From Mitsuaria chitosanitabida ATCC BAA-476 = NBRC 102408 (GTDB lineage Bacteria > Pseudomonadota > Gammaproteobacteria > Burkholderiales > Burkholderiaceae_C): DNA of 64,000 bases. Each line of letters begins with the position of its first letter. Within the stretch, counting starts at the first letter, position 1. The notes under the pieces are model-generated. The model was not told where the DNA came from and ran no database searches. It was given only the letters and a program-made list of their open reading frames with translations. The translations under genes and the position numbers were made by a program. Location of the stretch: contig NZ_BCYP01000004.1 in NCBI RefSeq assembly GCF_001598255.1, forward strand, positions 1 through 64,000. The letters are read 5' to 3'. Positions 17,638 through 34,133 of the stretch are shown one piece after another.

Positions 17638-19044
17638 ATGCCGCTCGCTCCTCCCGATCCCGACGACGACCATCCCGACGACAGCCGCTATCTGGACGGC
17701 GAGGACGGCGCGGCGCTGAACGCCATCAACGAGGTCCGCGCGCTCGAGGCCGGCCGCAACAACCTGCTGCAGCTGGTGCAGCTGCGCTGGCTGGCGGCGG
17801 CGGGCCAGTTCGCGACGGTGCTGTCGGTGCACTACGCGCTGCACATCCGGCTGCCGATGCCGGAGATGCTGACCCTGCTGGCGGTGCTGGTGCTGTTCAA
17901 CCTGGCCTGCTGGCTGCGCGCGCGCTGGATGCCCAGCGTCCGCAATGCCGAGCTCTTCGCGGGCCTGCTGGTGGACGTCGCGGTGCTGAGCGGCCAGCTG
18001 TACTACAGCGGCGGCGTCACCAATCCCTTCATCTTCCTGTTCCTGCTGCAGATCGCGGTGGGCGCGGTGCTGCTGCCCTCGCGCTACATCTGGTTCATGG
18101 TGGGACTGACGGGCGGCTGCTTCATCGCGCTGACGCAGTGGCATCAGCCGCTGCTGGTGCCGGACATGGCCGGCCTGGCGCTGCCCACGCACTACATCGG
18201 CGGATTGCTGATCTGCTTCGCGATCAACGCGGGGCTGCTGGTGATCTTCATCCAGCGCATCGGGCGCAACCTGCGCACGCGCGACGCGCGCCTGGCCGAC
18301 CTGCGCCAGCGCGCGGCGGAAGAGGAGCACATCGTCCGCATGGGCCTGCTCGCCTCGGGCGCCGCGCACGAGCTGGGCACGCCGCTGGCGACCTTGTCGG
18401 TGATCCTGGGCGACTGGTCGCGCATGGCGCCCTTCGCCGGCGACCCGGAGCTGCGCGAGGAGATCGAGGAGATGCAGGTCCAGCTCAAGCGCTGCAAGGC
18501 GATCGTGAGCGGGATCCTGATGTCGGCGGGCGAGTTGCGCGGCGAGTCGCCGGTGGTGACCACGCTGCAGGCCTTCCTGGGCGAGCTGGTGGAGCACTGG
18601 CGCGCGACGCGCTCGCGCGAGGGCCTGGAGTACCGCCCCGATCCGGACCTGCCGACGCTGCGCATCGTGTCGGACGTCGGGCTCAAGCAGATGATCGACA
18701 ACATCCTGGACAACGCCCTCGAGGCGGCGCCGGGCCATCCGGTGATGCTGCGCGCGCTGATCGAGGATGGCCAGCTGGTGCTGCGCGTGCGCGATCGCGG
18801 GCCGGGTTTCCTGCCGGAGATGCTGGAGCGCTTCGGCAAGCCCTATCAATCGAGCAAGGGCCGCGCGGGTGGGGGGCTGGGTCTGTTCCTGGCGCTGAAC
18901 GTGGTGCGCTCGCTGGGCGGGCGCCTGCAGGCCCGCAACCGCGACGCGGAGGAGGGCGGCGGCGCGGAAGTCGAGATCCGCATGCCGCTTTCCGCGCTCG
19001 CGCCGCAAGGACTGTCCGACAATGGCGGCCATGATGCAGGATGA
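17638..19044 (+). CDS. RegB/PrrB-like redox sensor histidine kinase
   Basis: 468 residues. Six N-terminal membrane helices (about 45-205) contain GGVTNPF (125-131), the quinone-binding signature of RegB/PrrB. The kinase core has the H-box ASGAAHELGTPL (His244), the conserved redox cysteine in QLKRCKAI (Cys286), the N-box DNILDNALEAAP and the G-box GGGLGLFLALN. RegB kinases sense quinone-pool redox state and control respiratory genes. Here the gene directly follows the oxidase operon and overlaps its response regulator, so control of cyo is likely. No clear ribosome-binding site was seen before the ATG. Confidence 0.88.
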   Translation: MPLAPPDPDDDHPDDSRYLDGEDGAALNAINEVRALEAGRNNLLQLVQLRWLAAAGQFATVLSVHYALHIRLPMPEMLTLLAVLVLFNLACWLRARWMPSVRNAELFAGLLVDVAVLSGQLYYSGGVTNPFIFLFLLQIAVGAVLLPSRYIWFMVGLTGGCFIALTQWHQPLLVPDMAGLALPTHYIGGLLICFAINAGLLVIFIQRIGRNLRTRDARLADLRQRAAEEEHIVRMGLLASGAAHELGTPLATLSVILGDWSRMAPFAGDPELREEIEEMQVQLKRCKAIVSGILMSAGELRGESPVVTTLQAFLGELVEHWRATRSREGLEYRPDPDLPTLRIVSDVGLKQMIDNILDNALEAAPGHPVMLRALIEDGQLVLRVRDRGPGFLPEMLERFGKPYQSSKGRAGGGLGLFLALNVVRSLGGRLQARNRDAEEGGGAEVEIRMPLSALAPQGLSDNGGHDAG

Positions 19045-19603
19045 CCTTTCCGCCGATGCCGACCGGCTGCTGCTGATCGTCGAGGACGACGACGCGTTCG
19101 CGCGCACGCTGGCGAGATCGTTCGAGCGTCGCGGCTATCAGGTGCTGCGCGCGACCAGCCTGGAGCAGGTGCAGAAGCTGCTCGACGAGCGCGCGCCGGA
19201 CGAGCGTCCGGAGTACGCGGTGGTCGATCTGAAGCTGGCGGGCGGGGGTTCGGGCCTGGCCTGCGTGCAGGCGCTGCACGAGCGGGATGACGAGATGGTC
19301 ATCGTCGTGCTGACCGGCTACGCGAGCATCGCGACCGCGGTCGAGGCGATCAAGCTGGGCGCTCGTCACTACCTGGCCAAGCCCGCGAACACCGATGACA
19401 TCGAGGCCGCGTTCTCGCGCGCGGACGGCGACGCGGACGTCGAGGTGACCGCGCGCGCGACGACCTCGATCAAGACGCTGGAGTGGGAGCACATCCACGA
19501 GACGCTGGCGGCGACCGACTTCAACATCTCGGAAACCGCCCGCCGCCTGGGCATGCATCGCCGCACGCTGGCACGCAAGCTGGAGAAGCAGCGGGTGAAG
19601 TGA
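19022..19603 (+). CDS. RegA/ActR/PrrA-like response regulator
   Basis: 193 residues. An N-terminal receiver (LLLIVEDDDAF acidic pocket, phospho-acceptor Asp69 in VVDLKLAGGG, VVLTGYAS, and Lys in YLAKPANTDD) is joined to a C-terminal Fis-type helix-turn-helix (FNISETARRLGMHRRTLARKL). This is the compact RegA/ActR layout. The gene overlaps the kinase by 23 bases, so they are translated as a pair. Starts at Met4 or Met5 are also possible. Confidence 0.9.
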   Translation: MAAMMQDDLSADADRLLLIVEDDDAFARTLARSFERRGYQVLRATSLEQVQKLLDERAPDERPEYAVVDLKLAGGGSGLACVQALHERDDEMVIVVLTGYASIATAVEAIKLGARHYLAKPANTDDIEAAFSRADGDADVEVTARATTSIKTLEWEHIHETLAATDFNISETARRLGMHRRTLARKLEKQRVK

Positions 19604-20284: not shown

Positions 20285-20941
20285 CTACACAAGTCGCCCG
20301 GCACGCACCGGCGGCGAGGGGATCAGGCCCAGCTCGCGGGCGATGCCCGCGGCCTCGGTGCGCGTGGCGGCGCCGAGCTTTTCCAGGATCGCCTTCATGT
20401 GCGTCTTCACCGTGCCGGCGGAGATCCGCAGCGTCTGCCCGACCGCCTTGTTGCTCTTGCCCAGCGCCACCTCGCCCAGCACCTCGCGTTCGCGCTCGGT
20501 GAGCGCGCTGCGGGTCATGCTCGCGGCCACGCGCTGCGCGGCGCGCTGGCTCAGGTAGCGCGAGCCGCGCGCGACCAGGCGCACGCCGTTGACCAGCTCC
20601 TCGATGTGGCAGCCCAGGTCCGCATAGCCCTCGACGCCGGCCTCCAGCGCCGAGCGCACGTCGTGCTCGCGATCGTTGGCGGTGAGCAGCAGCACCTTGG
20701 CGCCCTCGGGACGCGCGGGCGCCTGCAGGAAGGGCGGTCGCGGCGCGCGGGGCGAGCGACGCTCATGGACCAGGCTCAGCGCGCCCTCGTAATCGGTGAT
20801 CACGACGCGCGGCTCGGCCTGTTCATGCTCGACGAGCTCGATGTCCGCGTGACGGGCCAGCACCGTGGCGAGCCCCACGGCCACGAGCGGATCGGCATGC
20901 GCGACCCGCACCTGGATGCGATGGAAAGACGTGTTCATCAT
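20285..20941 (-). CDS. LuxR/NarL-type response regulator
   Basis: 218 residues. An N-terminal receiver-like domain keeps an Asp in VVITDYEGA and the LLLTAN segment but has a long Pro/Arg-rich insertion (ERRSPRAPRPPFLQAPARP) between them. The C-terminal LuxR helix-turn-helix is intact (LTEREREVLGEVALGKSNKAVGQTL, AGTVKTHMKAIL). No partner kinase is adjacent. An AGGGAG site precedes the start; two consecutive ATGs allow a one-residue shorter form. Confidence 0.8.
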   Translation of the reverse strand: MMNTSFHRIQVRVAHADPLVAVGLATVLARHADIELVEHEQAEPRVVITDYEGALSLVHERRSPRAPRPPFLQAPARPEGAKVLLLTANDREHDVRSALEAGVEGYADLGCHIEELVNGVRLVARGSRYLSQRAAQRVAASMTRSALTEREREVLGEVALGKSNKAVGQTLRISAGTVKTHMKAILEKLGAATRTEAAGIARELGLIPSPPVRAGRLV

Positions 20942-21046
20942 GGGGAGCTCCCTCTGTGCGACCCCGTCAGACTAGGGCCGGGCGGGTGAGCTCGCCATAA
21001 CGTCTTGGTATGAGGGAAGCCCCCGTCGGATGGGGGAGGGCGCGCG

Positions 21047-21607
21047 CTACGACACGTACAGCCGGGACGAGCGCGGCACGCTGGCGAGCAGGAACTCCAT
21101 CTGGTCCGCCAGGATGCGGCGGCCGCGCAGGATCATGTCCTCGTGCAAGCTGGGCACGTAGGGGAGATAGAGCAGCGACATGTGCGCCTCCTCCGGGGTG
21201 CGGTTGCCCTTGCGGCCGTTGCAGCCACGGCAGGCGGTGATGCAGTTCATCCAGGTGTCCTTGCCGGCGCGCGACACCGGCTGGATGTGCTCACGCGTCA
21301 GGTGGTCCGGATGGAAGCTGTGGCCGCAGTACGCGCAGACATGGCGGTCGCGCGCGAACAGCTTGAAGTTGGACAGCGCCGGCGACTGGCGCCAGGCGCG
21401 GCTGGGAATCGCGCCGCGCACGGCCACGATGGGGTGAAGCTCGATGCGCGACTGCAGGCCCGTGATGCGCTGGTAGCCGCCGCGCAGGATGTGGCACGGG
21501 TCCCCCAGCGTCCACGCGATGGCGTCGCTGGCATAGAGCACCGCTGCTTCCTTCGTCGAGATCCAGGCCTGCGGTCGGCCCGAGATGTCCAGTTGCAGAA
21601 CGTCCAC
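21047..21607 (-). CDS. HNH endonuclease-domain protein
   Basis: 186 residues. The C-terminal half carries a zinc-ribbon HNH nuclease core: CAYCG, then LTREHIQPVSRAGKDTW, MNCITACRGCNGRKGNRTPEEA. The two CxxC pairs bind structural zinc and the His/Asn residues form the active site. The N-terminal half is not recognised. Stand-alone genes of this type are common in proteobacteria; no restriction or toxin partner is adjacent. Confidence 0.85.
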   Translation of the reverse strand: MDVLQLDISGRPQAWISTKEAAVLYASDAIAWTLGDPCHILRGGYQRITGLQSRIELHPIVAVRGAIPSRAWRQSPALSNFKLFARDRHVCAYCGHSFHPDHLTREHIQPVSRAGKDTWMNCITACRGCNGRKGNRTPEEAHMSLLYLPYVPSLHEDMILRGRRILADQMEFLLASVPRSSRLYVS

Positions 21608-21843
21608 GGTCGATGACCTCCAGCGACAAAGGGTAATCCAGTAGTGGGGGGCAACTCAAGTGCCAGGTCGCATCCGGTGGCGCCATCGACACGCGTTTCG
21701 CGCTTTTCGGCGAAGTTCGGTGCCGGTTCGGCGATGAATGGCGCGGCATTGGCCGATCGAGGCCGGCGCGAACGAGCCATCCGACCTGTCTTGCGGCGGT
21801 CTTGTGGCGGCCGGCCGTCCCCGGTCGGCCCGCCCGGCCCCCC

Positions 21844-22641
21844 TCAGCCGGGCAGCTGGCCCAGCGCGCGTAGCGTCGCGAGGCCGATCAGGCCGCCGGC
21901 GGACAGCGCGTCCTCCGGCAGGCGCGCGCGGCCCAGCCGCACATCGGGGGCGAGGACGTCCAGCCGTTCCCGCAGCGGCGGCGCGTCGTCGGCGTCGATC
22001 TGGACGACGCACAGCAGCGGCGCGTCCGCGCGACCCGCCCAGCCGATGAGATCGCCGCCCTCCAGACCCGCCATCAGCTGCGCGGCCAGGGGCGGCAGTT
22101 CCGCCGCGTGGCCCGCGATCACGTGCACCACGACCTCCGAGCCATCGCGCAGCGCGAGCCGCACCGTCTGATCGAGACGCCCGTGCAGCGCGTCGGCATC
22201 GAGCGGCGCGGGCATCGGCAGGTCCGCGTGACCGGTGAGCTGGCGCAGCATCACGTCGAGCTCCTCGGCCTTGTCGAAGAAGCCGTTGGCCCCCGCCGCG
22301 AGCACGCCGGCGCGGTAGGCCTCGGTCTGATGGGAGAGCACGTGCACCTGGCCGGCATAGCCCTGCTTGCGCAGCGTCTTGAGCACCGCCAGGCCGGAGC
22401 CGCCCTGCGCCAGCGACAGGTCCAGCAGCACCGCCCTCGGCTGCAGCGCCGTGACCAGCGCGATGGCGGTGGTCTCGTCGGCGGCCTCGCCGATCACGCG
22501 CAGGCCGGGCACCGCGTCCAGCCGCTGCAGCAGCTGGCGGCGGATGGTCAGCGAGTCCTCGACGAGGACCACGGTCAGCAGGCCCGCGTCCGGCGTCGTG
22601 GCCGGCGCGGTGGAGGAGGAGGGCGTCTCGTTCGGCTGCAT
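21844..22641 (-). CDS. Receiver protein with degenerate GGDEF-like C-terminus
   Basis: 265 residues; last gene of the chemosensory operon. The receiver (about 22-140) is complete: VEDS, phospho-acceptor Asp74 in VLLDLSL, Ser103, Lys124 in FFDKAEE. The C-terminal 115 residues are not a DNA-binding domain. By eye they follow the order of a shortened GGDEF domain: AGHAAELPPLAAQLM, GGDLIGWAG, then RADAP where GGDEF would be (203-207), IDADDAPPLRERL, and SAGGLIGLAT. Catalytic residues are absent, so cyclase activity is unlikely. In Wsp operons this position holds WspR (receiver-GGDEF). The GGDEF relationship is an inference. Confidence 0.65.
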   Translation of the reverse strand: MQPNETPSSSTAPATTPDAGLLTVVLVEDSLTIRRQLLQRLDAVPGLRVIGEAADETTAIALVTALQPRAVLLDLSLAQGGSGLAVLKTLRKQGYAGQVHVLSHQTEAYRAGVLAAGANGFFDKAEELDVMLRQLTGHADLPMPAPLDADALHGRLDQTVRLALRDGSEVVVHVIAGHAAELPPLAAQLMAGLEGGDLIGWAGRADAPLLCVVQIDADDAPPLRERLDVLAPDVRLGRARLPEDALSAGGLIGLATLRALGQLPG

Positions 22642-22681
22642 CGGGCTCCCGTGTCGTTCCGCGCGTCAAGGCGTCGGCGTG

Positions 22682-25681
22682 TCAATCGTCCAGCGGATCG
22701 AGGTCGCCCCAGCTGGTACGGCTGATGGCGCGCTTGACCTCGTCCATGAAGTGACCTTGCGGCCCTGGCGAGGACCGCGCGCCGGAGGGTAGCACCGGCG
22801 GGGGCGCGGCACCGGCCGGCGCCGCGGCCGCGTCGACCGCCGGCTGCCGCGCCGTGGCGCGCTGCACATGGCGATTGAGCAGCTCGCGATCGCGCGCGCT
22901 CAGCTGCGAGGCGGCCACCACGATCACCGGGATCGCGGCGGTCAGCGGATCGCGCTGCAGCGCCTCGACGACGCCGATGCCGTCGACCTCCGCCATCAGC
23001 AGGTCCAGCACGATGAGGTCGGGCACGTGGCGGCGCGCGAGCTCGATGCCCTCCTTGCCGCCGGTGGCGCGCAGCACCGAGAAGCCCGGCTGCGACAGAT
23101 GCGCGCTGAGCGACTGCAGGTCGCCCGGCGCGTCGCTGATCGCCAGCACCAGGAACTTGCGCGTGGCCGTGGGCTTGAAGCCCAGCATCTGCAGTTCCTG
23201 CGTCAGCGCCTTGCGGCTGACCGGCTTGTGCAGCACCGCCGAGGCGCCCAGCGACAGCGCGACCTCCTGGCCCGCGTCCACCGACACCACAACCACCGGG
23301 ATGTGCGCCCAGCCCGGCAGGTTCTTGAGCCGCGACAGCAGCTCCCAGCCATCGAGACCCGGCAGGTTGACCTCCAGCGTGATCAGGTCGGGGCGCAGCT
23401 GATGCGCGAGCTCCAGCGCCTCCTCGGCCGAGCGCACGTGGCGTACGCGGAAGCCCGCGCCCTTGAGCTGGGTCTGGATCAGCGTCGCCGCCTGCTCGTT
23501 GTGCTCGATGACCAGCGCCAGCGGACGGCCGTTCGGCTCGTCGGGCAGGATCACGTCGGGCACCACCGGCTCGCGCCAGGGCAGCCAGCAGGTGAAGCAG
23601 CTCCCCTTCTCGGGCTCGCTGCTGACGGCCACCGCGCCGTCGTGCAGCTGCACCAGCCGGGCCACCGTCGCCAGACCCAGCCCCGTGCCCTCGACCTTGT
23701 GCGTCAGCGCGTTGCGGATCTGGTTGAAGGGCTGGAACAGGCGGTCCAGCCCGTCGGCCGGAATGCCGATGCCGCTGTCGGTCACGCTGATCTGGACGAA
23801 CTCGGCGTACTCGCTCGGCGGCAGGTCGGATCGCCGGCCCTGCGGGAAGCCGGGCAACGCCTCGCGGGCGCGGGCCCGCGACACGCGGCGCGCCTCGAGC
23901 CGGATCTGCCCGCCCTTGGGCGTGAACTTGGCGGCGTTGGAGAGCAGGTTGTAGATGATCTGCCGCAGCCGGCGGCGGTCGACGCACAGGCGCTGATGGC
24001 CGCCCACGCCGAAGAAGTTCATCTGGATGTTGCCTAGCCGCGCGCGCTCCTGGACGATGGCCAGCGCGTCGCCCAGCAGCTCGTCCAGGTCCACCGGCTC
24101 GATGTCCAGGTCCACGCGGCCGGCCTCGATCTTGGCCATGTCCAGCAGGTCGTTGACCAGGGACAGCAGGTGCTGGCCGGCGTTGTGGATGTGGTTGCAG
24201 AACTCGGACTGGCGCTCGCTGACCGGGCCCGCGGCGCCGTCGCGCATCAGCTGCGCGAAGCCGATCACCGCGTTCAGCGGCGTGCGCAGCTCATGCGACA
24301 TGGTCGACAGGAAGGCGGTCTTGGCGCTGCTGGCGCGGCTGAGCTCGGCGTTGAGCTGCTCCAGCGCGTCGTTGCGCTGCTGCAGCACGGCCAGCAGTTC
24401 GGCGCGGCTGTCGGCCAGCTCGCGCGCGGCGCGGGCCTCGGCGGCTTCCATCGCGCTGTTGTGCAGCTCGGCATGGGTGCGGCGGGCTTCGTCCTCGAAC
24501 TGCTTGCGGCGCAGCTGGGCGCGCAGCCGCGCCTTGAGCAGCTCCACCTCGCCGCCCGCCTTGACGACGTAGTCGTCCGCGCCGATCTCCAGCCCGGCCA
24601 GCATGGTCTCCCGGCCGTCGAAGGCGGTGAGCAGCAGCACCGGGATGTCGCGCAGCGCCGGCGCGGCCTTGATGCGGCGGCAGGTCTCCAGGCCGCCGAT
24701 GCCCGGCATCTGCACGTCCAGCAGGATGGCGTCCACGCTCTGCACCGACAGCAGCTCCAGCGCCTGCTCGCCGCTGGCGGCCGCGATCACGTCGAAGCCG
24801 TCGTCGCGCAGCGTGGCGCCGAGTTCGGCCAGCACGTTGGCGCTGTCGTCCACCAGCAGCAGCCGCTTGGGGCCGAGCAGGCTGGCGCCGTGCTCGGGCA
24901 GGCTGGCCTTGGCGCTGCGCAGCATGGCGGCCACGCGCGCCAGGATCAGGTCGACGTCGTCCTGCTTGCGGGCGAAGGCGTCGGCGCCGGCTTCCAGCGC
25001 GCGCAGCTCGGCCTCGTAGCCCTCGTCGGCGGTGAGCAGCAGGCAGGGCGTGTGGCGCAGCGCCGGGTCCAGGCGCAGCGAGCGGATCACGGTCGCGCCG
25101 TCCATGCCGGGCATGTGCTGGTCGACGATCACCGCGTTGGGCCGCAGCGCGGCGGCCTGGCGCAGGCCTTCGTCACCGCTGGGCGCCAGCAGGATGCGAT
25201 AGCCGGCGGGTTCCAGGGCCTCGCGCAGCGCCTCGCGGAAGGTCTCGCTGTCGTCGATCAGCAGCACGCTGGGCGGCTGGTTCAGCGCGTCGCCGGCACT
25301 GCGCAGCGCATGGCGCTGGCGCACCAGCTCGCGCGCGCGATCGACGACGTAGAGCCGGTCGTAGGGCTTGCCGACGTACTCGTCCGCGCCGTGGGCCAGG
25401 CCGCGCAGCCGGTCGCCGGCCTGCGAGGCGCTGGACAGGATCAGCACCACGCAGTCCTGGCCGCCGGGCGCGGCGCGCAGCTCGCTCAACCAGGCCGCGC
25501 CGTCGCCGTCGGGCAGCTGCTTGTCCAGCAGCACCAGCGCGGGCGTGCCCTGCGCCAGCGCGGCGCGCGCCGTCGCCAGCGTCGGGCATTCGACGCAGTC
25601 GAAGCCGGCGTCCTCCAGGGCCTCGCGCAGATCCATCCGGACCGTGAGGCTGTCCTCGACGATCAAGGTCTTTTCATTCAT
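22682..25681 (-). CDS. Hybrid histidine kinase with five receiver domains
   Basis: 999 residues, no membrane segment. Order: REC1 (3-125, Asp53), REC2 (137-257, Asp187), REC3 (270-392, Asp322), coiled coil (about 395-450), HisKA (FLSTMSHELRTPLNA, His463), HATPase (N-box NLLSNAAKF, TDSGIGIP, GTGLGL), REC4 (720-835), REC5 (842-945, Asp893), and an acidic tail. In REC4 the phospho-acceptor is Glu770 (LITLEVNLPG) and the acidic pair is degraded (VIEHNE), a phospho-mimic pattern. The ATG at 25681 overlaps the cheB stop by 4 bases and opens a receiver, so the long upstream extension is rejected. It probably takes phosphate from the CheA-like kinase through its N-terminal receivers. Confidence 0.88.
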   Translation of the reverse strand: MNEKTLIVEDSLTVRMDLREALEDAGFDCVECPTLATARAALAQGTPALVLLDKQLPDGDGAAWLSELRAAPGGQDCVVLILSSASQAGDRLRGLAHGADEYVGKPYDRLYVVDRARELVRQRHALRSAGDALNQPPSVLLIDDSETFREALREALEPAGYRILLAPSGDEGLRQAAALRPNAVIVDQHMPGMDGATVIRSLRLDPALRHTPCLLLTADEGYEAELRALEAGADAFARKQDDVDLILARVAAMLRSAKASLPEHGASLLGPKRLLLVDDSANVLAELGATLRDDGFDVIAAASGEQALELLSVQSVDAILLDVQMPGIGGLETCRRIKAAPALRDIPVLLLTAFDGRETMLAGLEIGADDYVVKAGGEVELLKARLRAQLRRKQFEDEARRTHAELHNSAMEAAEARAARELADSRAELLAVLQQRNDALEQLNAELSRASSAKTAFLSTMSHELRTPLNAVIGFAQLMRDGAAGPVSERQSEFCNHIHNAGQHLLSLVNDLLDMAKIEAGRVDLDIEPVDLDELLGDALAIVQERARLGNIQMNFFGVGGHQRLCVDRRRLRQIIYNLLSNAAKFTPKGGQIRLEARRVSRARAREALPGFPQGRRSDLPPSEYAEFVQISVTDSGIGIPADGLDRLFQPFNQIRNALTHKVEGTGLGLATVARLVQLHDGAVAVSSEPEKGSCFTCWLPWREPVVPDVILPDEPNGRPLALVIEHNEQAATLIQTQLKGAGFRVRHVRSAEEALELAHQLRPDLITLEVNLPGLDGWELLSRLKNLPGWAHIPVVVVSVDAGQEVALSLGASAVLHKPVSRKALTQELQMLGFKPTATRKFLVLAISDAPGDLQSLSAHLSQPGFSVLRATGGKEGIELARRHVPDLIVLDLLMAEVDGIGVVEALQRDPLTAAIPVIVVAASQLSARDRELLNRHVQRATARQPAVDAAAAPAGAAPPPVLPSGARSSPGPQGHFMDEVKRAISRTSWGDLDPLDD

Positions 25682-26748
25682 GAGTGGGCTCCTCCCCAGG
25701 CCATACCGCTCAAGCCCAACAAGGCGGGACCGATCTCGTTCAGCGGCAGGATGCGCTCGGCGGCGCCCAGCTGGGCGGCCTCGCGCGGCATGCCGTACAC
25801 CATGGAACTGGCCTCGTCCTGGGCCAGCGTCGCGCCGCCGGCGCGGCGGATCGCCAGCAGCCCGGCCGCGCCGTCCCGGCCCATGCCGGTCAGCAGCGCG
25901 GCGGCGACGCCCGCGCCGATCTCGGCGGCCAGTGATTCGAAGAGCACGTCCACCGACGGGCGGCAGGAATGCCGCGGCGGCGCGTGGCTCAGATGCAGCT
26001 GTCCGCCGCGCGCGATCAGGTGGCTGTCGGGCGGGGCGAGCAAGACCTGACCCGCGAGCTCGCGCAGCAGCTCGCCGCCCTGGGCGTAGCGCACGCGGTG
26101 CGGGGTCTGCGCGTCCAGCCACTCGGCGAAGCCGCGGCTGAAGACGGCGTTGATGTGCATCACGATGAGCACCGGCAGGGGCGCCGGCGCGGGCAGCGAC
26201 TGCAGCACCTTCATCAGCGCGCCGGGCCCGCCGGTGGACGCCCCCAGCGCCAGCAGCGCGCGCCGTCCGGGCGGCGGCATGCCGGCGGCGGCGACGGACG
26301 GCGCGGGCCGACCCGCGATGCGGGCGCGGACATGCGTGATCACGCGGATGCGCGACACCAGGCGCAGCAGCGTCACGTAGCGCCGCTCCCACTCGCCCTC
26401 GGGTTGCGTGCCGCTGGGCTTCTCCAGCACCTCGACGGCGCCGGCGGCCAGCGCCTCGTAGGTGCGCAGCAGCTCGCCGCGGTTGGTCGACGAGGACACG
26501 ATCAGGATCGGTGTCGGGCAGTGGGCCATGATGGCCTCGGTCGCGGCCTGGCCGTCCATGCCGGGCAGCATCATGTCCATGGAGATGACGTCGGGCCGCA
26601 GCTGCTGGCACAGGGCCACGGCCTGCATGCCGTCGTGCGCCTCGCCGACGATCTCGATGTCGCTCTGCGCCGAGAGCACCTCGCGGATGTGGGCCAGCAC
26701 GGTGATCGAGTCCTCGACCACCAGCACGCGCAGCTTGGACCCGCTCAT
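25678..26748 (-). CDS. CheB-type methylesterase of the chemosensory operon (WspF-like)
   Basis: 356 residues. A receiver (VVEDSITVLAHI, Asp in VISMDMMLPGMDG, IVSSSTN) is joined by a linker to the methylesterase domain, with catalytic serine in LGASTGGPGALMKVL, His in VIVMHINAVFSRGF and Asp in LTGMGRDGAAG. It removes methyl groups from the receptor and resets adaptation. Four-base overlaps with both neighbours (cheA-like upstream, hybrid kinase downstream) show tight coupling. Confidence 0.93.
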   Translation of the reverse strand: MSGSKLRVLVVEDSITVLAHIREVLSAQSDIEIVGEAHDGMQAVALCQQLRPDVISMDMMLPGMDGQAATEAIMAHCPTPILIVSSSTNRGELLRTYEALAAGAVEVLEKPSGTQPEGEWERRYVTLLRLVSRIRVITHVRARIAGRPAPSVAAAGMPPPGRRALLALGASTGGPGALMKVLQSLPAPAPLPVLIVMHINAVFSRGFAEWLDAQTPHRVRYAQGGELLRELAGQVLLAPPDSHLIARGGQLHLSHAPPRHSCRPSVDVLFESLAAEIGAGVAAALLTGMGRDGAAGLLAIRRAGGATLAQDEASSMVYGMPREAAQLGAAERILPLNEIGPALLGLSGMAWGGAHS

Positions 26749-28952
26749 GGGGCGGCCCCGTCGTCGTCGGCCGTGGCGGGGGCGGTCGACGCCGTCGCGA
26801 CCGTGGAGGCCGACGCGATCGCGGCCGACCGGGTCACCAGGCGCGCGACCTGCGCGAGGAAGTCGTTCTGCGCGAACTCGCCCTTGACGATGTAGCCGTC
26901 GGCGCCGACGGCCTTGCCGCGCGCCAGGTCCTCGGGCGCGTTGCGCGAGGTCACCAGCACCGCCGGCACGTCGCGCAGCGCGGCGTCCTGGCGGATGCGG
27001 CTCACGAACTCGAAGCCGTCCATGCCGGGCATCTCGACGTCGACCAGGATCAGCGCATAGCGCTCGCGGCGCGCGGCCTCCAGGCCGTCCTCGGCGGAGG
27101 CGGCCATGTGGACGCGGTAGCCGGCCGCCTCCAGGATGCTCTGCTCGAGCATGCGGGTGGTGAGCGAGTCGTCGATGACCAGGATGGTCCCGGTGCGCGG
27201 GGCCGGCGCGGCGGCGCGCGGGCGGGCGCGCCGCGCGGCGGCGGTGAGGCCTTCGGGCGCGAGCACCGGCACCGGCTGCTGGGCCGCGTCCAGCGCCAGA
27301 CCCGCGATCAGCGGGGAGGCCGGCAGCAACGCGGGCGGTGGCCGCAGCACGACGATGGCGATGCCGTCCAGCGCCTCGACGCCCAGCGCGGCGCGCTGGC
27401 CGCCACCGCGCAGCACCAGCGCCGAGCGCGGCGCGACCGCCTCCGGCGCCGCGCCGCCGGGGCGCAGCACCTCGGTCAGCGGGAGGAGCGGCAGCAGCTC
27501 GTCCTCGAGCGCGATGTGCTGGCCGTTCAGCGTTGGGCGCTGCAGCACGCACTCCACCGCGTCCAGGGGAATCCAGGCCGAGAGCCCGTCCGAGATGACC
27601 TGGATCGCGCGCAGCGCGGCGATCTGCACCGGCACCAGCAGCTCCAGGGTCGTGCCCAGGCCGCGCGTGCTGCGCAGCGTGAGGCGGCCACCGAGGCGAT
27701 CGGCGGTGTCGCGCACCAGGTCCATGCCGACGCCGCGTCCCGCGAGCGCGTCCACGCGGCGCGCGGTGCTCAGGCCGCCGCGCAGCAGGCGCTCGATCAG
27801 CGCCTCGTCGTCCAGCAGCGCGGCGTCGGCCTGGCCCTTGGCGGCGGCGGTGCGGCGCACGGCATCCAGGTCCAGGCCGGCGCCGTCGTCCTCGCAGCGG
27901 AAGAGCACATCGCGGCCGCGCCGCTCGACGGTCAACGTGATGCGGCCCTGGGCCGGCTTGCCGGCGGCGATGCGCTCTGCCGGCAGTTCGATGCCGTGGG
28001 CGAGGGCATTGCGCACCATCTGGACCAGCGCGCCCAGCAGCGCGTTGAGCACCTCGCCGTCGAGCTTGACGTCGCCGCCGTGGCCCTCGAAGCGGGCCTG
28101 CTTGTCCTGCGAGCGCGCCGCGTCGCGCGTGGCGCGCTGCAGCGGCGCGAAGAGGCTGGAGGTCGGCACCAGGCGCAACTGCTCGGCGCTGTCGCGCAGC
28201 GCGACCAGCTCGCGCCCGAGCTGCCGCGTGCCGCGCTCGAGCTGATCCTCGATGCGGGCCAGCGGACCCGCCAGCACCTCCTGCGGGCCCTCCAGCGCCA
28301 GGCGCAGCTCGCGCACCAGCGCGGCGGCGCGCTCGATCGGCGCCAGCTGGCCCTGCGTCTGCGCGATGTGGGCGATGACGGCATCCAGCTCCTCGGGCGA
28401 CTGCCGGGCGATGTCCGGCAGGGCAGGAATGGGGGCGTCGTCGACGGCGGACTTGTCGGGGCGGGGCGGAGGCGCCGCGAGCGCGGCCCCGGTCGCCGAC
28501 GGATCCGCGGGGAGCTCCGCCGGTCCCGGCGAGCCCGCGGCCCCCGGAGGTCCCGGTGGCCCGGCGACGCCCGGCGCGCCGATGGCCCCGGCCAGGCCCG
28601 GCTGGCCCGGCGCGCCCGTGGCACCCCGGGCACCCGCCTCGCCCGGGTCGAGCGCGGTGATCGCGTCGCCGGCCGCGTCGATCAGCATCAGCAGTCCGTC
28701 CAGCGCGGCCCGGTCCGGCGCCGCGCCGCTGTCGCGCAGGGGCGTGAGCAGGTCCTCGATGCCATGCGCGTGGCCGGCGATCTCGGGCAGGCGCACCACG
28801 CTGGCCGCGCCCTTGAGCGTATGGGCCAGCCGCAGCAGCTTGACGGGCAGGTCCGGCACCGGGCCCTGCTCGGCGGCCAGCACGGCCTCGCTCATCTGCC
28901 GGAGCAGATCGCGCGCCTCGACGCGGAAGAAGCGGTAGGGATCCTTGGCCAC
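26745..28952 (-). CDS. CheA-type kinase fused to a receiver, with collagen-like linker (WspE-like)
   Basis: 735 residues. Hpt/P1 domain (about 5-100, phospho-His44 in AHTLKGAA); linker with 14 uninterrupted Gly-X-Y triplets (104-145); dimerisation region; HATPase (MVRNALAHGIELP, EDDGAGLD, GVGMDLV); CheW-like domain; C-terminal receiver (VIDDSLTTR, Asp in ILVDVEMPGMDG, Lys in YIVKGE). This is the WspE/FrzE layout. It is the central kinase of the operon, taking signals from the CHASE3 receptor through the two CheW proteins. The collagen-like stretch is unusual for a cytosolic kinase. Confidence 0.92.
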   Translation of the reverse strand: MAKDPYRFFRVEARDLLRQMSEAVLAAEQGPVPDLPVKLLRLAHTLKGAASVVRLPEIAGHAHGIEDLLTPLRDSGAAPDRAALDGLLMLIDAAGDAITALDPGEAGARGATGAPGQPGLAGAIGAPGVAGPPGPPGAAGSPGPAELPADPSATGAALAAPPPRPDKSAVDDAPIPALPDIARQSPEELDAVIAHIAQTQGQLAPIERAAALVRELRLALEGPQEVLAGPLARIEDQLERGTRQLGRELVALRDSAEQLRLVPTSSLFAPLQRATRDAARSQDKQARFEGHGGDVKLDGEVLNALLGALVQMVRNALAHGIELPAERIAAGKPAQGRITLTVERRGRDVLFRCEDDGAGLDLDAVRRTAAAKGQADAALLDDEALIERLLRGGLSTARRVDALAGRGVGMDLVRDTADRLGGRLTLRSTRGLGTTLELLVPVQIAALRAIQVISDGLSAWIPLDAVECVLQRPTLNGQHIALEDELLPLLPLTEVLRPGGAAPEAVAPRSALVLRGGGQRAALGVEALDGIAIVVLRPPPALLPASPLIAGLALDAAQQPVPVLAPEGLTAAARRARPRAAAPAPRTGTILVIDDSLTTRMLEQSILEAAGYRVHMAASAEDGLEAARRERYALILVDVEMPGMDGFEFVSRIRQDAALRDVPAVLVTSRNAPEDLARGKAVGADGYIVKGEFAQNDFLAQVARLVTRSAAIASASTVATASTAPATADDDGAAP

Positions 28953-28992
28953 GATGCCGGTTGTCCTGTACGGGGGATCGACGGATCGCGGC

Positions 28993-30453
28993 TCAGGCCG
29001 GCTGGGCCTGGACCAGGCGCAGCAGGTCGCGCGACATCTCGGCCAGCTCGGTGGCCGTCTGCGAGGTCTGGCCGGAGCTGGCCTCGGTCTCGCGCGAGGC
29101 CTGCGCCGTGTTGGACAGCGCCACGTTGAGCTGCTCCACCGCGGTGGCCTGCTGCTTGGTCGACAGCTCGATCTCGCGCGCCGCCTCGGTCGTGGTCACG
29201 ACCAGCGAGGCGATGCGGCCGAAGGTCGAGGCCACGTCGTCGAACTGGCGCGCGCCCGCGTCGACCGCCTTGGAGCCGGTCTCCGTCGCCATCACCGTGG
29301 TGTTGACCGCGCCCCGCACGTCGTCGATCTGCACGCGGATCTCCTTGGTCGAGGCGGTCATGCGGTCGGCGAGCTTGCGGATCTCGTCCGCCACCACGCT
29401 GAAGCGCCGACCCGCGTCGCCCGCGACCGTGGCCTCGATGGTGGCGTTGATGGCCAGGATGTTGGTCTGCTCGGCGAGCTCGCCCACCAGGTCCAGCACG
29501 ACGCCGATCTGCTGCGACTTGCGGCCCAGGTCCAGCATGTGGTCCACCACGAGGTCGATCTGCCGCCGCATCGCGGCGATGGTCTCGCGCGCGGCCTGCA
29601 GCGTGCCGTCGCCGCCGCGCGCGAAGCTCGCGGTCTGCTCGGCGATGCCGACCACGCGCTGCGCGCTCTCGGCGATCTGGCGCGAGGTGGCCAGCAGCTC
29701 GGAGATGGTGGTCGAGATCTCGGTCATCGAGGTCGCCGTCTCGCGCGCGCCGGCGGCCTGCTGGTTGGCGGCGGCCTGCAGCTCGGCGGAGGAGCGCTGG
29801 ACATGCCGCACGGCGGAGCCGACCTGGCCGCTCAGCGCGCGGCTCAGCGTGATCGCCGCGATCAGCACCAGCACCGCGCCGGCCAACGTGCCCCAGACGA
29901 TGGCCTGGCGCACGTTGGCCGCCGCATGCTCGACCTCGGTGGCCCGCTGCTTGAGCAGGTCCTCCTCCTCATCCTCCATCTGGCCGACGACCACGCGCAG
30001 CTCGTCCATGCGGCGCTTGCCCTCGCCCATGCGCACTAGGCGCATCGCGGCGTCCTCGCCGCTGCCGCGCCGCATGTCGATCCGGTCCTTGTGCAACGTC
30101 AGCAGGCCGTCGATCATCTGCGACGCCTGGTTGAGCCGCGACTGTTGCGCGGGGTTGTCCCGGATCAGGCTCTTGAGCTCCGTCAGCAGCTTGGGCAGGT
30201 CCGTGGTGGCCTGTCGGTAAGGCTCCAGGTAGGTCTCGTCCCCCGTCAACAGGTAGCCGCGCTGGGCGGTCTCGGCGTCCTTCATCGCGCTGAGCAGCGC
30301 GGTGACGTGGTTCAACGCCGCATGGGTGTGCGCCACCTGGTAGCTGGTCTGCGTGAGCACGTCCACCCCGCGGTAGGACAGCGTCCCGATCACCAACAGC
30401 AAGGCGAAGGACAGGGCGAAGCCCACCGTCAACTTTCTGCCGAAGGTCCACAT
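28993..30453 (-). CDS. Methyl-accepting chemoreceptor with CHASE3 sensor (WspA-like)
   Basis: 486 residues. Membrane helix 1 (about 8-26), periplasmic CHASE3-type helical sensor (DAETAQRGYLLTGDETYLEP, 59-78), membrane helix 2 (about 184-206), no clear HAMP, then the signalling hairpin with EQTNILAINATIEATVAGD and FSVVADEIRKLADR. The start at 30453 has AGGGAG 9 bases upstream; an ATG at 30471 overlapping the cheW stop is the alternative and adds six residues. CHASE3 ligands are mostly unknown; WspA relatives respond to surface contact or envelope stress. Only the receptor of this operon is membrane-bound. Confidence 0.9.
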   Translation of the reverse strand: MWTFGRKLTVGFALSFALLLVIGTLSYRGVDVLTQTSYQVAHTHAALNHVTALLSAMKDAETAQRGYLLTGDETYLEPYRQATTDLPKLLTELKSLIRDNPAQQSRLNQASQMIDGLLTLHKDRIDMRRGSGEDAAMRLVRMGEGKRRMDELRVVVGQMEDEEEDLLKQRATEVEHAAANVRQAIVWGTLAGAVLVLIAAITLSRALSGQVGSAVRHVQRSSAELQAAANQQAAGARETATSMTEISTTISELLATSRQIAESAQRVVGIAEQTASFARGGDGTLQAARETIAAMRRQIDLVVDHMLDLGRKSQQIGVVLDLVGELAEQTNILAINATIEATVAGDAGRRFSVVADEIRKLADRMTASTKEIRVQIDDVRGAVNTTVMATETGSKAVDAGARQFDDVASTFGRIASLVVTTTEAAREIELSTKQQATAVEQLNVALSNTAQASRETEASSGQTSQTATELAEMSRDLLRLVQAQPA

Positions 30454-30467
30454 GTGCGTTCTCCCTG

Positions 30468-31013
30468 TCATGAGCCGATCGGATCGGCGGTCGTTGTCTC
30501 GTCGAGGCCGGACGTTGTCGCCAGCCGGCCGGTGACCGTGGCGATCACGTCGTCCAGCGCGATCAGCGGGCGCAGCGCGCCGCCGCAGCGCACCGCCCAG
30601 CCGGTGCCGGCGGCGTCGCTCTGCTGCAGGCGCTCGCTGGCGGCGATGCGCCACTGGCCCTCGAAGCCCTCGAAGGCCAGCGCCAGCGGCGCCGCGCGGG
30701 CGACGGCCCACCAGTGGACGGCGGGGGCGGCGCCGTGGCCGATCAGGGTCTGCAGGTCATACAGCGGCAACACCTGACCCTGATGGCCGATCAGTCCGAG
30801 CAGGCCGGGCGCGGTGGCGGGGTAGGGCACGGGAGGCATCGCGGGCAGCAGTCCGGCCAGATCGGCCAAGTCCAGGGCGAACGCGGCCCCGGCAATCCGT
30901 ATGCCCAGCACGTCGAAGGTGGCGTCGTCGGCGCGATGACGCCGCGGCTCGGCGAAGCCGCGATCGAAGGTCTCGCGCCAATCGCGCAGTTGGCGGCGGA
31001 TCTCTTCCGTCAT
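30468..31013 (-). CDS. CheW-like coupling protein (WspD-like)
   Basis: 181 residues with one CheW domain (FDVLGIRIAGAAFALDLADL; GLLGLIGHQGQVLPLYDLQTLIG; VIATVTGRL). It links receptor and CheA-like kinase. ATG 31013 overlaps the cheR stop by 4 bases. An N-terminal arginine-rich helical segment of about 40 residues precedes the domain. Confidence 0.85.
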   Translation of the reverse strand: MTEEIRRQLRDWRETFDRGFAEPRRHRADDATFDVLGIRIAGAAFALDLADLAGLLPAMPPVPYPATAPGLLGLIGHQGQVLPLYDLQTLIGHGAAPAVHWWAVARAAPLALAFEGFEGQWRIAASERLQQSDAAGTGWAVRCGGALRPLIALDDVIATVTGRLATTSGLDETTTADPIGS

Positions 31014-32557
31014 GCGTGGGCCTCTCCGATCTCGTCGCGGCACAGGCGCCGCAGGTCATCCCGCTCGAAGCCGCCGCCGAAGCGGCGCAGCCGGGCGGCG
31101 CTCTCGTCGTCGAGCAAGGCCAGCGCCCGGCGCAACTCGCGGTGCGCGGCGACGATCTCGCCGCGGCGGCGCGCCATCAGCCCCAGGCGCAGATGCGGCA
31201 TCGCGAAGCCCGCGTCCTTGGCCGCGGCGCGCTGGTGGTGCCATTCCGCCGACGGCAGCTGGCCGCGCTCCTCCATCGCCAAGGCCTGGAGGTAGAGCAC
31301 CTCGGCCTGCAGGGCGGACGGGAGCTCGGGCGAGCTCAGCCGCGCGCAGGCGCGCAGGCCGTCGTCAATCAGGCCGGCCTCGACCAGGCGCAGCGCTTCG
31401 TCCAGCAGGGCCTGATCGCCATCGCGGCCGGAGGCGTCCGCGCGTTGCAAGTCGGGGGCGGCCGGCGCGCCGCGGGTCTCGCTCGCGGAGCGGGCCACGC
31501 CGGGCGCGGCCGAGGCACTGGTCCAGGGAAAGGGCCAGGACGGCGGCAGGCAGCGGTCCAGGCCGAGCGCGGTCTCCTCGCCGGCCTCGGGCGAGGCGCC
31601 CGGGGCGCCGACGATCGGGCGCTGCTGGCCGTCCGGCCGCTCGGTGCGCCGCGCCACGCCGGCGGCTTCGCGCTCGTAGAAGAAGCAGCCTTGCGCCTGG
31701 CGCAGGCTCAGCGCGTCGGTGTGCCCGCGCAGGGTCTCGGCGTGGCCGACGAACAGCACCCCGCCGGGAGCCAGGGCACCGGTCAGGTTGCGGATCGCCT
31801 GTCGCAGCGCGGCGGGCTCCAGGTACATCAGCACGTTGCGGCAGAAGATGACGTCGAAGCGCGCCGGCGTCCAGAACCCGGCGTCGGGCAGCCCAAGGTG
31901 GCGTTGCTCGAAGCGCACCCGCTCGCGGATGCCCGGGATCGGCGTCCAGCCGCGGCCGCCCCGGCTGTCCCCGTCCGCCTCGTTCACATCGGCCTTGTCG
32001 ACGCGGCGGAACCACAGGTCGCGCAACTCGGCCGGCGTCGCGCGCAGGCTCCATTCGCCGTAGCGGGCGGCGAGGCCCCGCGCGAGCGCGGCCGGGTTCA
32101 GGTCGATGGCCAGCACCTCCCAGTCCAGCCCCTGCACCTGCAGGCCCGCGCGCTGAAGCGTGATCGCCAGCGTGTAGGCCTCCTCGCCCGACGCGCAGCC
32201 TGCCGAGAGCACCCGCAGGCGCTGCGGCGCCGCACCGGTCAGCGCGGCGTCTGACAGCGCGCGCCGCGTCATGCGCGGCAGCAGGTCGAAGCGCAGCGCG
32301 TCCAGCTGCTCGGGGTGACGGAAGAAGAAGGTCTCGCCGACGGTCAGCTCCGCCGCCAGGGCGTCGAGGCGCTCGCGCGTGGGGGCGACTTCCATCTGGG
32401 CGAGGAAGCGCTCCGGCCCGGTCGTGCCCGCCACGCGGGTCAGCGCGGCCGTCAGCCAATCGTCCTGGCGGTCGTCGAACTGCAGTCCCAGCCGCGACGC
32501 CAGCACGGCGCGCAGGCGCGGCAGCAGCGCGGGATCGGCCGGCGCCGCGCGGCTCAC
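31010..32557 (-). CDS. CheR-type methyltransferase with C-terminal TPR-like region (WspC-like)
   Basis: 515 residues. N-terminal CheR helical domain (TVGETFFFRHPEQLDALR), then the SAM-binding fold (VLSAGCASGEEAYTLAI, FDVIFCRNVLMYL, GGVLFVGHAETL). A Pro/Ala-rich linker leads to a helical TPR-like C-terminus (LLDEALRLVEAGLIDDGLRAC ... HLRLGLMARRRGEIVAAHRE). It methylates receptor glutamates. The start is taken as GTG 32557, which overlaps the preceding cheW stop (GTGA) and begins VSRAAPADPALLPRL; the frame stays open upstream, but that part overlaps cheW. Confidence 0.9.
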   Translation of the reverse strand: MSRAAPADPALLPRLRAVLASRLGLQFDDRQDDWLTAALTRVAGTTGPERFLAQMEVAPTRERLDALAAELTVGETFFFRHPEQLDALRFDLLPRMTRRALSDAALTGAAPQRLRVLSAGCASGEEAYTLAITLQRAGLQVQGLDWEVLAIDLNPAALARGLAARYGEWSLRATPAELRDLWFRRVDKADVNEADGDSRGGRGWTPIPGIRERVRFEQRHLGLPDAGFWTPARFDVIFCRNVLMYLEPAALRQAIRNLTGALAPGGVLFVGHAETLRGHTDALSLRQAQGCFFYEREAAGVARRTERPDGQQRPIVGAPGASPEAGEETALGLDRCLPPSWPFPWTSASAAPGVARSASETRGAPAAPDLQRADASGRDGDQALLDEALRLVEAGLIDDGLRACARLSSPELPSALQAEVLYLQALAMEERGQLPSAEWHHQRAAAKDAGFAMPHLRLGLMARRRGEIVAAHRELRRALALLDDESAARLRRFGGGFERDDLRRLCRDEIGEAHA

Positions 32558-33072
32558 GAGGCGGCTCCGGCGGTGGCGGAAGGTTCGGGGGTGTCGGTCG
32601 CCCCGGTCGTCGCGGTCGCGTCGGCGGGCAGCGCGGCGAGCCAGTCGTCGGGGAGCAGGCGGGCGTGGTCGAGCACCGCGACCAGCTCGTCGTCGCGTTC
32701 GGCCAGCGCCGCGACGGCCGCGTGCGCGCGGTCCTGGAGCAGCGGGGGCAGGGTGGAGACGATGTCGTCGGTCAGCGTGTGCAGGCCCATTACCTCGGCG
32801 ACGGCCAGCGCGACGCGGCGGCCACCGGCGCGCACGACGACATAGCGGCGCACCGGCGCGGCGGTCATGCCGAGCAACCCGGCCAGGTCGACCACCGGCA
32901 CCCAGTCGCCGCGGATGCGCGCCAGGCCCTGGACGTGGACCACCGCCGCCTTCAACGGACGCAGCGGTTGCGGACGCAGCGTCTCCTCCACGGCGTCCAG
33001 CGGCAGGCCGCACAGCCGGGACTGCACCCGGCACACCAGAACCCGAACGACGCCATTCGATGGCTTGTGCAT
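32554..33072 (-). CDS. CheW-like coupling protein (WspB-like), first gene of operon
   Basis: 172 residues, one CheW domain (VLVCRVQSRLCGLPLDAVEE; VVHVQGLARIRGDWVPVVDL; VVVRAGGRRVALAVAEVMG) and a low-complexity Thr/Ala tail. The ATG at 33072 has AGGGAG about 10 bases upstream. Two distinct CheW proteins in one operon match the WspB/WspD pair. Confidence 0.88.
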   Translation of the reverse strand: MHKPSNGVVRVLVCRVQSRLCGLPLDAVEETLRPQPLRPLKAAVVHVQGLARIRGDWVPVVDLAGLLGMTAAPVRRYVVVRAGGRRVALAVAEVMGLHTLTDDIVSTLPPLLQDRAHAAVAALAERDDELVAVLDHARLLPDDWLAALPADATATTGATDTPEPSATAGAAS

Positions 33073-33386
33073 TCTTCTGGCTCCCTGTTTGCACCAGTCT
33101 ATGCCGGCGCCCTCCGGCCCCCTGGCGCCGAAGGTCACTGGACCGGCTCGACGCGAACGGGGCACACGGCCTGCCAGGGTCGCCGAGAAGGGGCGATCCG
33201 CATGTTCGGGTTAACCCTTGAAATCCGCGCAGGCCGCCGTGTTCCCGGTCGGATGCCGCGCCGGACAACCGGCGCGGGTCCACCGGATTTAGGTCTTCAC
33301 CACTAAAAAAGGGTGGTCAAGGATTGCGTTTCCGGTCCGGACTTCTGCAAAATAGAACGACCGTTCGTTTTATTATTCCGGGCATC
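33073..33386. other. Divergent regulatory region between che operon and tetR
   Basis: 314 bases without a gene. It contains the leader of the chemosensory operon (minus), a 10-base palindrome GGGTTAACCC at 33208-33217, and the tetR promoter/operator near its right end. Confidence 0.6.
33324..33369 (+). promoter_or_regulatory. tetR promoter and operator
   Basis: TTGCGT (33324-33329) and CAAAAT (33348-33353), 18 bases apart, form a plausible promoter. Just after it is the inverted repeat AACGA-CCGT-TCGTT (33356-33369), a typical TetR-dimer site. Its location between promoter and GTG start predicts autorepression. Confidence 0.6.
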
Positions 33387-34133
33387 GTGTCCAGCACCGC
33401 CATCACCGCCAACAAGCCAGCCCCCGCGTCCGCGTCCGCCCGTCGGGGCACGCGTTCGTTGCAGAAGGGCCAGCAGACCCGCGCCGCCATCCTCGACGCC
33501 GCGCTGGGCCTGGCCTCGCACATGGGGCTGGAAGGCCTGTCCATCGGCGCGCTCGCCGACGTGACCAAGATGAGCAAGTCCGGAGTGTTCGCGCATTTCG
33601 GCTCGCGCGAGGAACTGCAGATCGCCGTGGTGCGCGAGTATCACGCCAAGTTCGAAGAGGAAGTCTTCTTCAGCGCGATCCGCCAGCCGCGCGGCCTGCC
33701 GCGCCTGCGCGCGCTGTTCGAGCGCTGGGTGCACCGCACCTCGGTCGAAGTGGACTCGGGCTGCATCTACATCAGCGGCGCGGTCGAATTCGACGACCGG
33801 CCCGGCCCGGTGCGCGACGCGCTGGTCGCCATGGTGCGCGACTGGCATGCCGCGATCCGCAAGGCCATCCTGCTGGCGCAGGAAGTCGGCCACCTCGTGC
33901 CGGAAGCCGATCCGGACCAGGTCCTGTTCGAGATGCACGGGCTGATCCTGTCGCTGCATCACGACGCGCGCTTCCTGCGCAGTCCCGGCGCGCTGGCCCG
34001 GGCCCGCACGGGCCTGGAGCGCATCCTCGACAGTTTCGCCACGCCGGCCGGCCGCAAGGCCGACGCCGAGACGCGGCAACCCAAAACCTCCGCCGCCGCC
34101 GCGGCGACCCCCGCCGGACGCAAGCGCGCCTGA
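33387..34133 (+). CDS. TetR-family regulator of the beta-oxidation locus
   Basis: 248 residues from GTG 33387. N-terminal helix-turn-helix (RAAILDAALGLASHMG, LSIGALADVTKMSKSGVFAHFGSREEL) and a ligand-binding domain; the tail is Ala/Arg/Lys-rich. A TTG further upstream (33324) would place the operator inside the gene and is rejected. It lies 52 bases before an acyl-CoA dehydrogenase gene, as do many TetR repressors that respond to acyl-CoA. The ligand is an inference. Confidence 0.85.
   Translation: MSSTAITANKPAPASASARRGTRSLQKGQQTRAAILDAALGLASHMGLEGLSIGALADVTKMSKSGVFAHFGSREELQIAVVREYHAKFEEEVFFSAIRQPRGLPRLRALFERWVHRTSVEVDSGCIYISGAVEFDDRPGPVRDALVAMVRDWHAAIRKAILLAQEVGHLVPEADPDQVLFEMHGLILSLHHDARFLRSPGALARARTGLERILDSFATPAGRKADAETRQPKTSAAAAATPAGRKRA

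Follow-up and report, generated by a model that had tools for sequence, protein, structure and literature searches.

We analysed a 64,000-nucleotide window of Mitsuaria chitosanitabida ATCC BAA-476 = NBRC 102408, a member of the Roseateles group (NZ_BCYP01000004.1, positions 1 to 64,000 of the forward strand; contig C4 of the 5.8 Mb genome), in which eight chemosensory genes run on the minus strand from 33072 to 21844. On balance, we favour the reading that these genes form a complete non-motility chemosensory operon of the Che6/Che3-like kind, in which a hybrid kinase is the output, that they are not a derivative of the Wsp system, and that the presumed output protein encoded by the last gene carries a dead GGDEF domain. 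The sequence itself shows which genes are present, their order and class, that catalytic and phosphorylation residues are conserved, and that the GGDEF domain is homologous but decayed. The starts and stops, together with Pfam matches, confirmed the eight-gene set that an earlier note on this DNA had described, and since the main Pfam E-value per protein ranged from 2.6e-7 (the second CheW) to 3.8e-100 (the receivers of the kinase) across all eight proteins, the gene set is not due to chance. The five junctions that the earlier note had given as 4-base or near-4-base overlaps are exact 4-base overlaps in every case, and the other two (receptor/cheA and kinase/last gene) are 40-base gaps.

Gene order and the CheA and CheB trees

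The window CheA protein was used to scan the GTDB species genomes, and the best 80 of 501 confirmed relatives were taken as loci, so that the counts cover the nearer relatives and include many metagenome bins. Reading frames of these loci were annotated with profiles built from the window proteins. After leaving out the 28 of 80 loci that had no room on one side, the order cheW-cheR-cheW-MCP (methyl-accepting chemotaxis protein)-cheA-cheB-(REC)n-kinase, which the window shares, was found in 42 of 52 evaluable loci, indicating that a receptor in fourth place and a hybrid kinase at the end are the usual layout of a broad class. Going by the record titles, the loci of this class came from Pseudomonadota, Acidobacteriota, Myxococcota, Planctomycetota, Verrucomicrobiota, Actinomycetota and others. 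The earlier note had read the set as a Wsp system with a displaced receptor and with WspR replaced by a hybrid kinase. The fourth position of the receptor was confirmed, but neither its displacement nor the replacement of WspR was supported, a receptor in fourth place and a kinase in last place being usual for this other class; the hybrid kinase as output was supported. The ten loci that departed from the order comprised five with other layouts (L154, L160, L161, L162 and L165), two with the receptor moved to the end (L092 and L093) and three with missing or shifted genes, possibly through faults in frame calling (L106, L140 and L147). In the Duganella, Chromobacterium and Massilia versions (L092, L093 and L118), the gene for a single-receiver protein is followed by that for a CHASE3 receptor, with which the operon ends.

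Among the best 80 of 501, the named relatives closest in CheA were mostly Roseateles noduli, R. chitinivorans, R. terrae, R. depolymerans and R. aquatilis, and we accordingly treat the genus as Roseateles. Within the same family, where at most five candidates per genome were scored, a CheA of at least 45% identity over nearly the whole query was found in 11 of 399 genomes, our own included, and the next by E-value had 38%.

A tree of the P4-P5 region of CheA was built by a careful method from 55 of 103 rows. The duplicate loci L066, L068, L072, L073 and L075 were dropped from this and from the CheB tree, the CheA tree was also made without the own-genome loci L166-L169, and the careful version was without L177 (Azospirillum, a long branch) and one long Herbaspirillum row. 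As a result, 38 class members, the window CheA among them, fell on one side of a branch with support 100/100, and the other groups were the three Wsp rows (100/100), the seven flagellar rows (98/84) and the two pilus-type rows (100/99). The CheB tree (54 of 93 rows, with three Wsp and six flagellar rows) gave the same separation, with support of 100/99 for the class, 100/99 for the flagellar and 100/100 for the Wsp rows. Together, these trees place the set outside both the flagellar and the Wsp lineages, and the separation from flagellar chemotaxis, which had been named in advance as the check on the earlier note, was borne out in both. In Azospirillum brasilense (L177) the genes as far as cheB are ordered in the same way, yet its CheA is very divergent and lies on the other side of the quick 103-row tree, so the clade is not defined by gene order alone.

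Three features of chemosensory systems with alternative cellular functions (ACF) were also compared. CheA lies outside the flagellar and pilus classes, as judged against only seven flagellar and two pilus-type rows, and the cluster contains a multidomain response regulator, the five-receiver hybrid kinase (a criterion given in PMC3447774). As for the third, a CheR-TPR fusion, the CheR half of the gene called cheR-TPR was confirmed (Pfam CheR E 4.6e-35), and the TPR half gave a weak, sub-threshold match (Pfam TPR_2 E 0.017; 15.6 bits, where 27 are required). According to the same paper, around 40% of the response regulators in cheR-TPR clusters carry a kinase module.

The hybrid kinase and the last protein

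The kinase gene (22682..25681, minus strand) encodes a CheS-like hybrid kinase of 999 amino acids with the Pfam architecture REC1-REC2-REC3-HisKA-HATPase-REC4-REC5. A receiver-kinase gene after cheB was recognised in 62 loci; in 35 of them there are three receivers, all ahead of the kinase, and in 18 the receivers are arranged 3+2 as in the window. Residues were tabulated for 21 five-REC and 36 three-REC homologues. In REC1-3 of all 21 five-REC homologues the phospho-Asp, the checked acidic residue, the Thr/Ser and the Lys are kept, as are the HisKA His and the HATPase Asn, and the window kinase keeps all the checked phosphorylation residues of REC1-3. REC4 carries Glu in place of its phospho-Asp in the window kinase and in 7 of the 21 five-REC homologues, whereas the other 14 keep Asp, and in REC5 of the window kinase the Thr/Ser and Lys positions are occupied by Ala and Arg. 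The five receivers reported for this protein are therefore present, with REC1-3 intact, an Asp-to-Glu change in REC4 and an altered REC5. This residue pattern fits a CheA that signals into REC1-3 and a pair, REC4-5, that would no longer act as a normal relay in Roseateles. The seven REC4-Glu homologues are exactly those of the loci with a REC-pseudo-GGDEF gene; since they represent one lineage and not independent events, the match is a correlation only.

The last gene (21844..22641, minus strand) encodes a protein of 265 amino acids, the presumed output, in which a receiver (residues 24-132, by Pfam) is followed by a degenerate GGDEF domain (about residues 147-261, by hhalign). It had been called a receiver-effector, and the receiver was confirmed; its second half proved to be a degenerate GGDEF domain, so the name is too simple. 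Pfam found the receiver only, in this protein and in its seven aligned homologues, the best NCBIfam matches of the receiver were NarL and NarP, and Asp74 is invariant in the set compared. A profile of the C-terminal half matched residues 184-333 of a REC-GGDEF paralogue in the same genome (locus L171, 340 amino acids) with 17.8 bits, and the paralogue has a Pfam GGDEF match at residues 181-330 (E 7.9e-14). As compared by hhalign with a 12-row profile of the paralogue domain (12 of 14 paralogues, L198 and L203 having been dropped at the cutting motif), the C-terminal half scored 61.4 (probability 96%, E 1.1e-9), and the highest score in 200 column shuffles was 21.0. Against eleven canonical GGDEF domains the score was 35.1 (probability 70%, E 4e-5), with a maximum of 19.4 in 200 shuffles, and the alignment to GGDEF was collinear along the whole domain.

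When set against the canonical GGDEF alignment, the last protein lacks a 14-residue stretch that begins with DVDHFK in the Azoarcus cyclase, a stretch which we take to be the metal site. The GG[DE]EF signature is missing from the C-terminal halves of all 14 last proteins of the genus. The paralogue has A[NDT]EQF in its place in 14 of 14 genus copies, and the signature is also missing from five orthologous frames outside the genus, spread over four genomes (a single frame in each of G372, G374 and G405, two in G409; the L214 frame, identical to L213, was counted once). The domain is thus homologous to GGDEF but decayed, and by its residues is predicted to be catalytically dead. Since neither the paralogue nor the orthologous frames have an intact signature, the last protein probably goes back to a common ancestor with a receiver-GGDEF regulator in which activity was already gone. 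When the last protein was used as query, none of 33 records of the plasmid collection covered 80% of it, and an order-wide search of 300 genomes with the whole protein (at most eight candidates each) listed no match outside our own genome that reached beyond residue 190. Of the best 60 of 70 matches in a profile search of solved structures, nearly all lay on the receiver and none on the C-terminal half alone. The paralogue gene itself (L171:4678-5697, about 408678-409697 of contig C18 of the same genome; dead signature ANEQF) adjoins a CHASE3 histidine kinase and a LuxR-type regulator, the next frames look, by eye only, like fimbrial chaperone-usher genes, and a copy of the paralogue is present in 14 of 16 genus genomes.

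The last gene is present in 14 of the 16 genomes of the genus, our own included, and absent from G420 and G696. In 13 of 13 other congeners checked, the gene immediately follows the C-terminus of the kinase, and its first possible start is -4 to 91 bases away. These arrangements and the overlaps at the other junctions support the earlier view of a single operon, with which the last gene would be co-transcribed. In 12 hand-chosen pairs, calculated with a simple Nei-Gojobori script and without a statistical test, the ratio of nonsynonymous to synonymous substitution rates (dN/dS) was 0.09-0.41 for the C-terminal half and 0.05-0.33 for the receiver, suggesting that the C-terminal half is maintained under weaker constraint.

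Signal flow, studied systems and rival readings

Under the favoured reading, the two CheW proteins would hold the CHASE3 receptor in an array, and this receptor, adapted by CheR and CheB, would control CheA. Phosphorylated CheA would lose phosphate to CheB and to its own receiver, and would phosphorylate at least one of REC1-3 in the hybrid kinase, raising or lowering the autophosphorylation of that kinase. The kinase would then phosphorylate Asp74 in the NarL-like receiver of the last protein. Since the GGDEF domain appears dead by its residues, the last protein should act through a partner, by binding or dimerising, and not by synthesis of cyclic di-GMP (c-di-GMP), and the absence of a GGDEF or EAL Pfam match from all eight proteins makes a c-di-GMP product from the operon unlikely. 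We infer the phosphotransfer steps by analogy with Rhodospirillum centenum, and likewise infer their sign, the stimulus and the final target; for the steps that were checked, the required residues are in place. The proposed flow from CheA to the N-terminal receivers of the kinase and on to the last receiver protein is plausible, and matches what PMC3868531 describes for the Che3 system of R. centenum, which by this comparison is the nearest worked mechanism. There, CheA3 phosphorylates REC1 of CheS3, the activity of which the authors conclude to be lowered, and CheY3 is phosphorylated by CheS3 only.

Like the operon of the window, the Che3 system has eight genes, which encode two CheW, CheR, CheB, one receptor, a CheA that ends in REC, a further kinase that begins with receivers, and a final receiver protein. 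It differs in that CheS3 is a REC-REC-PAS-HWE kinase, whereas the window kinase has HisKA (PF00512), 3+2 receivers and no PAS match, and in that CheY3 is a single receiver, whereas the last protein of the window is REC-pseudo-GGDEF. The Che6 system of Myxococcus xanthus includes, in the tables of PMC3945109, CheW6a (MXAN_6947), CheR6 (6948, with TPR), CheW6b (6949), Mcp6 (6950, CHASE3), CheA6 (6951, with REC) and CheB6 (6952). To judge from these locus-tag numbers, MXAN_6947-6952 repeat the first six genes of the window, CHASE3 receptor included, in the same order; Mcp6 is given there with HAMP, for which the window receptor has no match. A degenerate GGDEF motif is likewise known from proteins such as FimX (PMC8846402), but FimX is an EAL protein with GDSIF, whereas the last protein lacks both the signature and the metal-site segment and has no EAL domain after it.

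By record titles the class is widespread in many phyla, and the only experimental work on systems of this layout that we found concerned M. xanthus Che6 and, by parts, R. centenum Che3. The operon kind is thus described and widespread, and Roseateles offers a compact single-operon example with all parts together; of the pseudo-GGDEF output with the matching REC4 change in the Roseateles group we found no description. A search for literature on Roseateles chemosensory systems, from which most subscription papers lay outside, returned none. Such operons look Wsp-like by their parts and yet belong to a separate lineage, and the comparison guards against that misreading. If the last protein is the true output, a pseudo-cyclase would stand under a chemosensory array, which bears on the reuse of dead GGDEF domains. 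A further proposal is that the Roseateles array signals through a phosphorylation-controlled pseudo-cyclase that docks on a live GGDEF protein or another partner in its phosphorylated state only, the loss of the REC4 Asp marking the shift of output from the receivers of the kinase to the last protein; we consider this unlikely, and if true, sensory input would reach c-di-GMP or surface behaviour without a cyclase of the operon's own.

Several observations weigh against the favoured reading. No promoter-like or terminator-like site was found in 20900-33500, but shuffled sequences are expected to give only 0.3 and 1.9, so their absence says little. The step from CheA to a kinase receiver is modelled on one studied system, that of R. 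centenum, in which the kinase belongs to the HWE type and has PAS and two receivers, only one of them phosphorylatable, and the R. centenum CheA was not placed in the CheA tree. Pfam gave no GGDEF match in the last protein or its seven aligned homologues, and a direct GGDEF profile scored near zero bits on the last protein, so that the likeness emerged only by way of the paralogue and from profile-profile comparison. The C-terminal dN/dS exceeded that of the receiver in 10 of the 12 pairs, a sign of weaker constraint, and several copies in L188-L191 (R. terrae included) have a shortened domain or one with Gly/Ala-rich inserts. Finally, of the 62 loci in which a kinase was recognised, 6 had the last gene behind it, all of them from the Roseateles group, and this, with the 40-base gap before it, means that the last gene could be a peripheral addition.

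We give a minor share of our belief to the possibility that the kinase acts on a DNA-binding regulator elsewhere, or on the LuxR-type regulator at 20941-20285, about 0.9 kb downstream, with the last gene a bystander or phosphate sink. The last gene is indeed missing in the surveyed relatives outside the Roseateles group, and a suppressor study (PMC8552884) implicates the regulator RowR in signalling by WspH in Burkholderia. However, the last gene is kept behind the kinase in 14 of 16 genus genomes and looks constrained, and a comparison with L066-L165 at E 1e-15 gave no match to the LuxR-type gene. It is improbable that the C-terminal domain is instead a new, unrelated effector domain with a compositional likeness to GGDEF, as the lack of a Pfam match, the near-zero single-sequence scores and the long Gly/Ala-rich inserts of one subclade might suggest, because the profile-profile scores exceeded all 200 shuffles in both comparisons along a collinear alignment, and, apart from itself, the whole last protein has no match in its own genome that scores better than the paralogue.

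A true Wsp derivative, formed by a move of the receptor gene and by the substitution of a hybrid kinase for WspR on the pattern of Burkholderia WspH, is highly improbable. It would account for the same six core parts and for the GGDEF remnant at the end of the last protein, and WspH systems do exchange the cyclase for a REC-kinase (PMC8552884), sharing with the window a chemosensory core and a hybrid-kinase output without a cyclase domain; a rewired output is thus not new in kind. In B. cenocepacia a REC-kinase frame adjoins the core (L173, taken as WspH by its layout, the record being unannotated), but its REC-HisKA-HATPase frame is short (380 amino acids) and its core falls in the Wsp clade. 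The CheA and CheB of the window lie outside that clade, and forcing the Wsp rows together with nine Burkholderiales members lowered the log-likelihood by 80.7 (approximately unbiased test, p 0.0015), a value of limited weight since the class was named after the quick 103-row tree had been seen, with a class branch supported at 94 by the Shimodaira-Hasegawa-like approximate likelihood-ratio test. The Wsp locus of Azoarcus sp. KH32C (L176) has the six core protein kinds and, in outline, a receiver-GGDEF type of output, but it begins with the receptor, and the protein in its WspR position keeps an intact GG[DE]EF. The GGDEF remnant of the window matches the Roseateles paralogue, and the receiver before it is NarL-like. 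A flagellar or type IV pilus chemotaxis operon, for which the presence of all core Che proteins might speak, is scarcely credible given the trees, the lack of any flagellar or pilus gene and of a stand-alone CheY among the eight genes, and the presence elsewhere in the same genome of a CheB/CheR pair (L166) and of a CheA labelled pilus-type (L171).

Individual genes and surroundings

The six genes before the kinase, all on the minus strand, begin with cheW for the first coupling protein (32554..33072, 172 amino acids; Pfam CheW E 4.7e-23). The cheR methyltransferase gene (31010..32557) has a GTG start and encodes 515 amino acids with a TPR-like C-terminus, with both of the motifs SAGCASGEE and CRNVLMYL present, and the second cheW follows (30468..31013, 181 amino acids; Pfam CheW E 2.6e-7). 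The CHASE3 chemoreceptor (28993..30471, 492 amino acids) matched Pfam CHASE3 (E 2.2e-42) and MCPsignal (E 4.8e-32), and no Pfam match to HAMP was found in it up to E 1. The CheA-REC hybrid (26745..28952, 735 amino acids) is composed, by Pfam, of Hpt, a linker, ATPase, CheW-like and REC parts, with the His, N-box, G-box and REC Asp motifs all kept. The CheB methylesterase with REC (25678..26748, 356 amino acids; Pfam CheB_methylest E 7.4e-57) keeps its Ser, His and Asp motifs.

The linker of CheA (28518-28646) contains 14 consecutive Gly-X-Y triplets (Pfam Collagen E 4e-7), whereas no other CheA frame examined has more than 4 in succession. Because its sequence is different in each of nine close relatives, this collagen-like linker was rejected as a meaningful feature and treated as a low-complexity quirk.

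Directly downstream of the operon lies an HNH endonuclease gene (21047-21607, minus strand), and nine loci, of which seven are distinct, likewise have it behind the operon. Upstream, a TetR-type gene and an acyl-CoA dehydrogenase gene (named by eye) recur beside the operon in those Roseateles-group loci that reach them, and with the HNH gene they give the locus the look of one inherited within the Roseateles group. The receiver of the LuxR-type regulator (20285-20941, minus strand) barely scores (Pfam E 0.12). This regulator was rejected as a conserved output on a comparison with frames of at least 60 amino acids in L066-L165, and having no match in these related loci it is possibly an insertion beside the operon. 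Elsewhere in the same genome, L167 and L168 (contigs C47 and C18) hold CheB-CheR-kinase-REC fusion frames of more than 1200 amino acids, with no CheA matched in the same stretch. On the plus strand, a redox pair of the RegB/RegA (PrrB/PrrA, ActS/ActR) type, below the NCBIfam cut-offs, lies at 17638-19603, and is also found downstream in L150 and L087.

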